From positions 1 through 64,000 of the forward strand of contig JAFIES010000076.1 in assembly GCA_020832415.1 (NCBI GenBank): 64,000 nt of DNA, read 5' to 3'. The notes under the pieces were generated by a model that saw nothing but the letters and a program-made list of their open reading frames with translations, made no database searches and was not told where the DNA came from. The DNA is from Balneolaceae bacterium. GTDB taxonomy: Bacteria; Bacteroidota; Rhodothermia; Balneolales; Balneolaceae. Shown here one piece after another: positions 28,323 to 28,824 of the stretch (position 1 is its first letter; each line of letters opens with the position of its first letter). The position numbers were made by a program, and so were the translations under genes.

Positions 28323-28372
28323 AAAATAAAAAAGGGTTTAAGGTTATTTTTTAAATAACCTTAAACCCTTTT
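28323..28372 (-). terminator. Strong terminator after the tRNA-fMet remnant
   Basis: A 19-bp perfect stem (28330-28348 / 28354-28372) with a TTTTA loop. On the minus strand it is followed by a T-rich tract. It is the counterpart of the terminator after the intact tRNA. Confidence 0.85.
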
Positions 28373-28380
28373 AAGTAGTT

Positions 28381-28434
28381 GTGGCGGGGGTAGGATTCGA
28401 ACCTACGTCCGCCTCAGGCGGATATGAGCCCAAC
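28381..28434 (-). pseudogene. Truncated, altered tRNA-fMet copy
   Basis: Bases 28381-28407 (T-arm and 3' acceptor) are identical to 28751-28777 of the intact tRNA-fMet, and the anticodon-loop segment GGGCTCATA (minus strand) is retained. The 3' anticodon stem and variable loop are replaced by the palindrome TCCGCCT-G-AGGCGGA. The D-arm and 5' acceptor are missing. It cannot fold as a tRNA. It begins 3 bp after the stop codon of the GIY-YIG gene. Confidence 0.85.
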
Positions 28435-28437
28435 AGG

Positions 28438-28686
28438 TTATGGATTTAGTATTGTATTACGAATCCAATTCCTTCCCTGCCCGCCTTTCAGTTCTTTTTC
28501 CCGAGCCATTGCTTCCGGTTTTGTATCATAAAGTTCCGTATGGATGATTTTCCAGGGCCGATATTTAACAGTCCATCCTTTGTTTCCAAGTTCATTATGA
28601 GATTTGAATCGTTCCTGAAGATTGGAAGTGTATCCGATATAAATTTTATCGTGCTTTTCTGAATGGAGAACGTAAACAGTAAACAT
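28438..28686 (-). CDS. Small GIY-YIG domain endonuclease
   Basis: An 82-residue protein made only of a GIY-YIG nuclease domain: 'FTVYVLHSE' (GIY-like VYVL), 'IYIGYTSNLQERFKSHN' (YIG plus catalytic Arg region), and 'PEAMAREKELKGGQGRNWI' with the metal-binding Glu. Proteins of this UPF0213/YhbQ type are common in Bacteroidota, with unclear roles. Its context is remarkable. It starts 15 bp after the terminator of tRNA-fMet and stops just before a damaged copy of that tRNA's 3' half, as if carried by or inserted with a duplicated tRNA end. It may be a minimal selfish nuclease; this is inference. Confidence 0.88.
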   Translation of the reverse strand: MFTVYVLHSEKHDKIYIGYTSNLQERFKSHNELGNKGWTVKYRPWKIIHTELYDTKPEAMAREKELKGGQGRNWIRNTILNP

Positions 28687-28700
28687 GAAAATTTTGATTT

Positions 28701-28743
28701 AAAACAAAAAAGGCTCAACTGTTCGAGAACAATTGAGCCTTTT
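28701..28743 (-). terminator. Terminator of tRNA-fMet
   Basis: An 11-bp stem AAAAGGCTCAA / TTGAGCCTTTT (28708-28718, 28733-28743), extended by GTTC/GAAC inside, with a T-rich tract on the minus strand. It begins 9 bp past the tRNA 3' end. Confidence 0.85.
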
Positions 28744-28751
28744 AGTGATTG

Positions 28752-28824
28752 TGGCGGGGGTAGGATTCGAACCTACGACCTTCGGGTTATGAGCCCGACG
28801 AGCTACCAGCTGCTCCACCCCGCG
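28752..28824 (-). tRNA. Initiator tRNA-fMet (anticodon CAT)
   Basis: 73 nt, folding as a full cloverleaf. The acceptor is CGCGGGG / CCCCGCC with position 1-72 unpaired (C/C), an initiator feature. The D-arm is GAGC...GCTC. The anticodon stem has the three G-C pairs typical of initiators (GGG-CTCATAA-CCC). The T-arm is GTAGG-TTCGAAT-CCTAC, with A73 as discriminator. CCA is not encoded. Confidence 0.93.

Follow-up and report, generated by a model that had tools for sequence, protein, structure and literature searches.

The 82-residue GIY-YIG gene next to tRNA-fMet in a Balneolaceae bacterium belongs to a family that is real, recurrent and phylum-wide, and apparently undescribed. By analogy with known systems, its members are most likely free-standing GIY-YIG homing elements of a new type, specialised on tRNA genes. 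The locus that we analysed is, on balance, probably one copy of the widespread, very compact selfish elements that occupy tRNA genes in Bacteroidota and adjacent phyla and carry a domain-only, free-standing GIY-YIG homing endonuclease. If so, a large uncharacterised set of bacterial GIY-YIG genes would gain a function and a niche, with homing sites in chromosomal, not phage, tRNA genes, and Bacteroidota genomes would have an explanation for their arrays of pseudo-tRNAs and for some of their short palindromes. The initial annotation had called the tie between GIY-YIG and tRNA genes little described, and in the literature searched, mainly in non-subscription journals, we found neither a description of bacterial chromosomal GIY-YIG genes linked to tRNAs nor one of pseudo-tRNAs marked by palindromes. 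A 2006 survey of the GIY-YIG superfamily connected SLX1-like proteins of prokaryotes with a fusion to a tRNA methyltransferase, but not with tRNA genes (PMC1564403).

Anatomy of the tRNA-fMet locus and its nuclease

The window is the whole stretch of DNA analysed, 64,000 nt of contig JAFIES010000076.1. On its minus strand the locus reads as an intact tRNA-fMet, a terminator, the GIY-YIG ORF, a tRNA-fMet remnant and a second terminator (Table 1), and ARAGORN, Rfam, Pfam and the sequence itself bear out this layout as first annotated. ARAGORN and Rfam agree on exactly one tRNA in the whole window, a tRNA-Met(CAT), which the C1-A72 mismatch and the GGG/CCC anticodon stem identify as the initiator type. 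The hairpin type of the first terminator is common to GIY-bearing congeners (L011, L012, L014, L016, L018 and L039).

Table 1. Coordinates of the features of the tRNA-fMet locus in the window
Feature	Position	Strand	Evidence or remark
Intact tRNA-fMet (CAT)	28751-28824	-	ARAGORN; Rfam RF00005, 66.7 bits
Terminator 1, T-tailed hairpin between intact tRNA and ORF	~28704-28744	-	Sequence; type AAGGCTCAATTGYTC..CAGTTGRGCC
GIY-YIG ORF, 82 aa	28438-28686	-	Pfam GIY-YIG, 8.8e-17
Pseudo-tRNA-fMet remnant	~28379-28434	-	Sequence; 3' part equals that of the genome's own intact tRNA
Palindrome TCCGCCTGAGGCGGA / TCCGCCTCAGGCGGA	28408-28422	-	Replaces tRNA nt ~38-47 (between A37 and C48)
Direct repeat, copy 1	28379-28407		29 bp, exact; T-arm and acceptor 3' strand
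Direct repeat, copy 2	28749-28777		29 bp, exact; within the intact tRNA
Terminator 2, strong, presumed original tRNA-fMet terminator	~28328-28375	-	Aligns with the sequence directly after tRNA-fMet in GIY-less L182
Ancestral 3' flank GCGTGGTAAAACTATGGTGAAACAAAGTCGCT	28283-28327	-	Alignments with GIY-less genomes (L182, L185, L189), downstream of tRNA-fMet

The remnant starts 3 bp past the stop codon of the ORF, the spacing first reported, and its 5' half is lost, as had been described. It retains the 5' strand of the anticodon stem with CATA, followed by the palindrome, an intact T-arm and the 3' strand of the acceptor. The earlier description of an overwritten anticodon stem holds for the 3' strand, which the palindrome replaces together with the variable loop, but not for the 5' strand and CATA, which survive. 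The palindrome TCCGCCTCAGGCGGA has one match in the window, versus 0.07 expected. The direct repeat, given before as 27 bp, proved to be 29 bp long. The GIY-YIG gene is the sole ORF of the unit, and no tyrosine or serine recombinase gene accompanies it, so an integrase-driven tRNA element was rejected. A group I intron or other known RNA element was also rejected, as Rfam matches nothing in the window beyond the tRNA; the ORF lies between terminators and not within an intron or intein. In the same window, positions 26298 to 28122, between the locus and rocD, hold an AbiEi/AbiEii-like type IV toxin-antitoxin pair (Pfam), which is missing from the corresponding interval in G017 and G019.

The AlphaFold2 model is a confident GIY-YIG fold (pLDDT 89) with no further domain, so that the protein is a single 82-aa GIY-YIG domain that, unlike I-TevI, has no separate DNA-recognition domain. 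The best Foldseek matches were UPF0213 (1zg2) and SLX1 (6seh), then At-HIGLE (7wme), all ahead of I-TevI and UvrC, and UPF0213 and SLX1 were also the closest solved structures by sequence (5e-4 and 3e-3, respectively). Unlike SLX1, however, the protein has no RING domain and no SLX4 partner was found in the unit; to our knowledge, UPF0213 and SLX1 genes have no tie to tRNA genes. The protein is a GIY-YIG enzyme and not an HUH tyrosine transposase. In a comparison with the PHROG phage families, the GIY-YIG families gave weak matches only (E 4e-3). A defence gene was rejected because the PADLOC similarity was weak and fell on the GIY-YIG part of larger proteins. The catalytic residues Y5, Y16, G18, R26, H30 and E63 are invariant in an alignment of 28 proteins. 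The ORF is under strong purifying selection, with dN/dS values of 0.03 to 0.12 in the four pairs with estimable dS, the other pairs being saturated.

tRNA linkage, nuclease clades and pseudo-tRNAs

The survey of homologues proposed in the initial annotation was carried out by protein similarity alone on a genus set (28 genomes, Balneolaceae) and a one-genome-per-species set, the latter with loci in Bacteroidota, Cloacimonadota and KSB1. Together the sets gave 184 homologous domains in 153 loci. A tRNA ended less than 350 bp upstream on the same strand in 112 of these domains and on the opposite strand in none, while seven further domains had a same-strand tRNA downstream only. The chance of an upstream same-strand tRNA is about 0.16% (36 tRNAs in 3.94 Mb); because the loci are partly non-independent, a binomial value is an indication, but the effect size is not in doubt. 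The tie to tRNA genes, first suspected at this one locus, thus extends through the phylum. Several of the exceptions lie at contig ends, are internal array copies or belong to a separate branch of the family. The genome itself has four GIY-YIG homologues. Three have a tRNA (fMet, Val(TAC) or Pro(GGG)) on one side and a broken fragment of that tRNA on the other; the fourth is more distant and stands without a tRNA. A further survey, covering 198 genomes from the whole phylum, gave the same picture and added Asn, Ala, Arg and Leu, Thr/Gly clusters and one tmRNA (L254, G058:C44), which has two GIY-YIG ORFs directly downstream. Plasmid and phage records contained no match able to serve as a vector, and such a vehicle was rejected; viral contigs yielded 14 weaker relatives, with a nearby tRNA in 1 of the 11 checked. 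A separate tRNA-less GIY-YIG branch (L004, L031, L034, L134, L142, L145, L147 and L151) is bordered by REP-like repeats of the CGTCATCC.. type. Rfam, applied to 40 loci, revealed no other RNA neighbour common to the tRNA-less branch.

The nuclease clades track the tRNA isotype, with Met-CAT, Gly, Asp, Val, Pro, Ser, Leu and Asn represented. On a tree of 160 domains, which has few alignment columns and weak inner forks, the isotype label changes 44 times, compared with 88 times when shuffled. All 10 Gly copies fall in one clade, the Asp, Val, Pro, Ser and Leu copies each group, and a large clade accompanies CAT tRNAs, both initiator and elongator. tRNA-Asn is found next to nucleases of two different clades.

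Most loci also have a damaged copy of the neighbouring tRNA, which lies downstream of the ORF or, in some Ser loci, upstream of it, often within tandem arrays that reach eight units. The local alignment scores of these remnants had a median of 46, versus a 99th percentile of 21 and a maximum of 30 after shuffling, and 76 of 105 loci scored above the highest of 2100 shuffles. With tRNAs of other isotypes as the control, the threshold rose to 55 and 30 of 105 loci passed; we judged this control too strict, since T-arm sequence is common to pseudo-tRNAs and both fMet and elongator tRNAs come under the Met label. The damage in CAT loci is mostly of one kind, GGGCTCATA-TCCGYC-N3..4-GRCGGA-C-T-arm; TCCCGA..TCGGGA occupies the anticodon arm in all seven Gly and all seven Asp loci. 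Of 134 loci, 70 have a perfect TCC-type hairpin in the 300 nt downstream, compared with 0.4 expected; among control stretches 900 to 1200 nt away, the count is 3 of 93. The palindrome had first been read as local damage, a reading that we rejected because its position and sequence are conserved: it occupies the same tRNA position in most CAT-type loci from Balneolaceae to Flavobacteria, and this swap for part of the anticodon arm poses a clear, testable puzzle. The exact pseudo-tRNA signature occurred in 6 of the 198 genomes, and each of the six belongs to the 16 that have a strong CAT-type GIY gene (Fisher, 1e-7). The stems differ between copies yet stay palindromic, although the copies were preselected for complementarity and so give no independent test of pairing. 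One further idea, suggested by the fold, was that the 3' half of the palindrome replaces the acceptor 5' strand; it fails in taxa with other acceptor sequences. The 3' part of the pseudo-tRNA agrees with the tRNA present in the same genome at a median of 25 of 28 positions, versus 10 for tRNAs of other genomes. The nuclease and the palindrome thus recur from taxon to taxon, whereas the tRNA sequence is the local one, so that the structure was built, or else kept matched, locally in many lineages.

Tandem arrays, empty sites and turnover

Tandem units of about 365 bp occur eight times in L241 and five times in L242, each unit with the same terminator and the array with at most one intact tRNA; further arrays are found in L012, L048, L056, L068 and L071. 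The repeats had been proposed as attachment sites in the integrase sense. However, there is no recombinase, and in the arrays such repeats are whole or partial tRNA copies, so that they look more like the product of recombination-driven unit duplication than like att sites. The duplicated tRNA 3' end on both sides and the restored gene end do resemble integrase-type tRNA elements, from which the lack of a recombinase, the small unit and the pseudo-tRNA arrays set the family apart. Pseudo-tRNA arrays without an ORF also exist (L181, L198 and L248). The last of these (G080:C31) has four tandem pseudo-tRNA-fMet copies upstream of an intact tRNA-fMet and no nuclease gene, with TCCGCC palindromes in place of the anticodon arm and, in two copies, TCCCGATATCTATCGGGA in place of the D-arm. 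In L199 (G007), tRNA-fMet is directly followed by a long tandem repeat that contains CTCGTCTGTCGAG/ACTCGTCAGACGAC palindromes and is unlike the other arrays.

The initial annotation had also called for a search of relatives for a tRNA-fMet locus without the insert, and such empty sites were found. In L182 (G002), terminator 2 and its flank lie directly after tRNA-fMet, in a 146-nt alignment to the window; the pseudo-tRNA and terminator 2 thus represent the 3' end of the original tRNA-fMet gene, as expected if an invaded tRNA gene had its end restored upstream. L182 could instead be a precise deletion between the repeats and not a never-invaded site. In G019, the nearest relative of the window by rocD, the neighbours are again the histidine kinase and rocD, and the ORF is missing. 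On a 15-leaf rocD tree the presence of the ORF changes five times, as often as with random labels, and decayed copies are frameshifted in G004 and truncated in G027. In the sister genomes G011 and G023 the flanks are 96% and 92% identical and the nucleases at the same tRNA-fMet 68%, a pattern that could also arise if the two had lost different units of an old array; more generally, uneven loss of units from old arrays could look like turnover. The nuclease gene is therefore not always fixed between two intact tRNA-fMet genes without empty sites, and its homologues are enriched beside tRNAs. The proposal of a mobile unit that rebuilds a tRNA end, or of an invaded tRNA gene, is favoured by the empty sites, the fast turnover and the L182 match, whereas its att-site mechanism was dropped.

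Proposed homing on tRNA genes and competing explanations

The unit is most likely a chromosomal, domain-only counterpart of SegB of phages T4 and T6. SegB, a free-standing GIY-YIG homing endonuclease belonging to the tRNA region, makes its cuts within tRNA genes (PMC13096335, citing Brok-Volchanskaya 2008), its motif RAWTSGAAC corresponds to the T-loop, and tandem tRNA + segB repeats arise with nuclease and recombination functions required (PMC13096335). The family shares with SegB the GIY-YIG gene beside tRNAs, the tandem tRNA and nuclease units and an ORF whose 3' end abuts tRNA sequence; additionally, the T-loop is the part retained in the pseudo-tRNAs described above. It differs in its bacterial chromosomal location, its small domain-only protein, its isotype-specific clades, its palindrome-substituted pseudo-tRNAs and its weak similarity to phage families. 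Each unit comprises the tRNA, the terminator and the GIY-YIG ORF and abuts an earlier copy of that tRNA, now disabled. In the mechanism that we propose, each nuclease clade would be aimed at one tRNA gene, here probably at the CAT anticodon region of tRNA-fMet. We infer that the endonuclease would break the tRNA gene and that the break would be repaired by homologous recombination with a neighbouring or incoming unit, so that repair would insert, replace or tandemly amplify the unit while keeping one intact tRNA. The superseded copy would survive as a pseudo-tRNA with its anticodon arm swapped for the clade-typical palindrome, which would make it non-functional and possibly uncuttable. This logic would account for the tRNA linkage, the tandem units, the ORF ends running into tRNA, the patchiness and the turnover. 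It gives no account of how the intact tRNA escapes or of why superseded copies bear a clade-typical palindrome, and against it stand the lack of a DNA-binding domain beyond the nuclease fold, nearest structures (UPF0213 and SLX1) that are not homing enzymes, and the missing vector match. The natural series of nucleases of about 80 residues sorted by tRNA target should be useful for learning how so small an enzyme selects DNA.

The palindromes suggest another reading, in which the enzyme acts on short palindromes of the TCCGYC and TCCCGA types and spreads or rewrites them, as in RAYT/REP systems, with hairpin-forming tRNA and 5S arms as favoured landing sites. The palindrome class follows the GIY clade (6 changes, versus 34 shuffled), but class is confounded with tRNA isotype and host. 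Palindromes outside tRNAs exceed the control in the 28 congeners (about 290 versus 32), often inside other hairpins, terminator loops and psi-5S arms, and genomes with CAT-type GIY genes are richer in them (P=0.002). However, G018 and G009 are palindrome-rich (75 and 12) without a CAT-type GIY gene, in incomplete assemblies, and we found no clean pair of palindrome insertion and empty site. Members of other GIY branches are bordered by inverted repeats and interrupt an integrase gene and a RAYT-like gene. As in TnpA-REP systems, the nuclease gene may have its own palindrome class beside it and in interspersed copies; it differs in being GIY-YIG instead of an HUH tyrosine transposase, in its linkage to tRNA genes and in palindromes of 15 to 16 bp within RNA-gene arms. 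We know of no strand-transfer chemistry for GIY-YIG enzymes, which also counts against this reading, and we consider it unlikely. A broader version is possible though doubtful: an as yet undescribed two-part mobile system, the GIY-YIG counterpart of RAYT/REP, in which minimal GIY-YIG clades, each with its own palindrome, would target specific RNA genes, overwrite superseded tRNA and perhaps 5S rRNA arms, and build self-amplifying nuclease/pseudo-tRNA arrays across Bacteroidota.

The strong purifying selection and the structural proximity to UPF0213 and SLX1 would also fit a host-domesticated, structure-selective nuclease that manages the copy number or stability of tRNA loci, for which the maintenance of rDNA copy number by yeast Slx1 is a precedent (PMC1564403). 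The patchy presence of the ORF within one genus, scattered like random labels on the rocD tree, the frameshifted and truncated copies, the different enzymes at one site in sister genomes and the many paralogues, each beside another tRNA, make this improbable. In a further reading, tRNA loci would often duplicate and decay by recombination and the gene would only travel with them, which agrees with the ORF-less arrays; given the phylum-wide clade-isotype specificity, the low dN/dS and an ORF kept intact eight times in one array, we consider such a passive passenger to be more improbable still. An RNA-acting nuclease or toxin-like gene, with the pseudo-tRNA transcript as a decoy or regulator by tRNA mimicry in the 3' UTR, would agree with the position of the pseudo-tRNA at the 3' end of the transcript, its good folding (z -7.5, mostly from the terminator) and the match of its 3' part to the local tRNA. 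However, all structural relatives found are GIY-YIG DNA nucleases, and many pseudo-tRNA copies lie upstream of the ORF or, as in L248, without one, and this explanation appears very improbable.

Several GIY-YIG ORFs and palindromes were seen in other settings. In L021 and L121 (congeners G008 and G021), GIY-YIG ORFs with inverted repeats (CCCCGTTAGAAATTT.. and CCCCGTTAAAAATGAAC..) lie inside a tyrosine recombinase gene at GHKSV codons, and the upstream part of L121 matches Phage_integrase. In L140 (G024, about 830 to 1320), a GIY-YIG ORF with inverted repeats CCTGTTAAATGAATCC lies exactly at the HP|xHIHL (HUH) codons of a gene called RAYT-like by motif alone, its two parts having no Pfam match. 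Broken 5S rRNA copies in L005 (own genome, C2) and L163 (G007) carry TCCGCC palindromes in two arms, with another in the 5S terminator loop. In L006, L007 and L008 of the own genome, the palindrome TCCGCCTNAGGCGGA sits in a repeat between genes that is built as CCTCCCCT-palindrome-TGGGGttGGGGGTGG.
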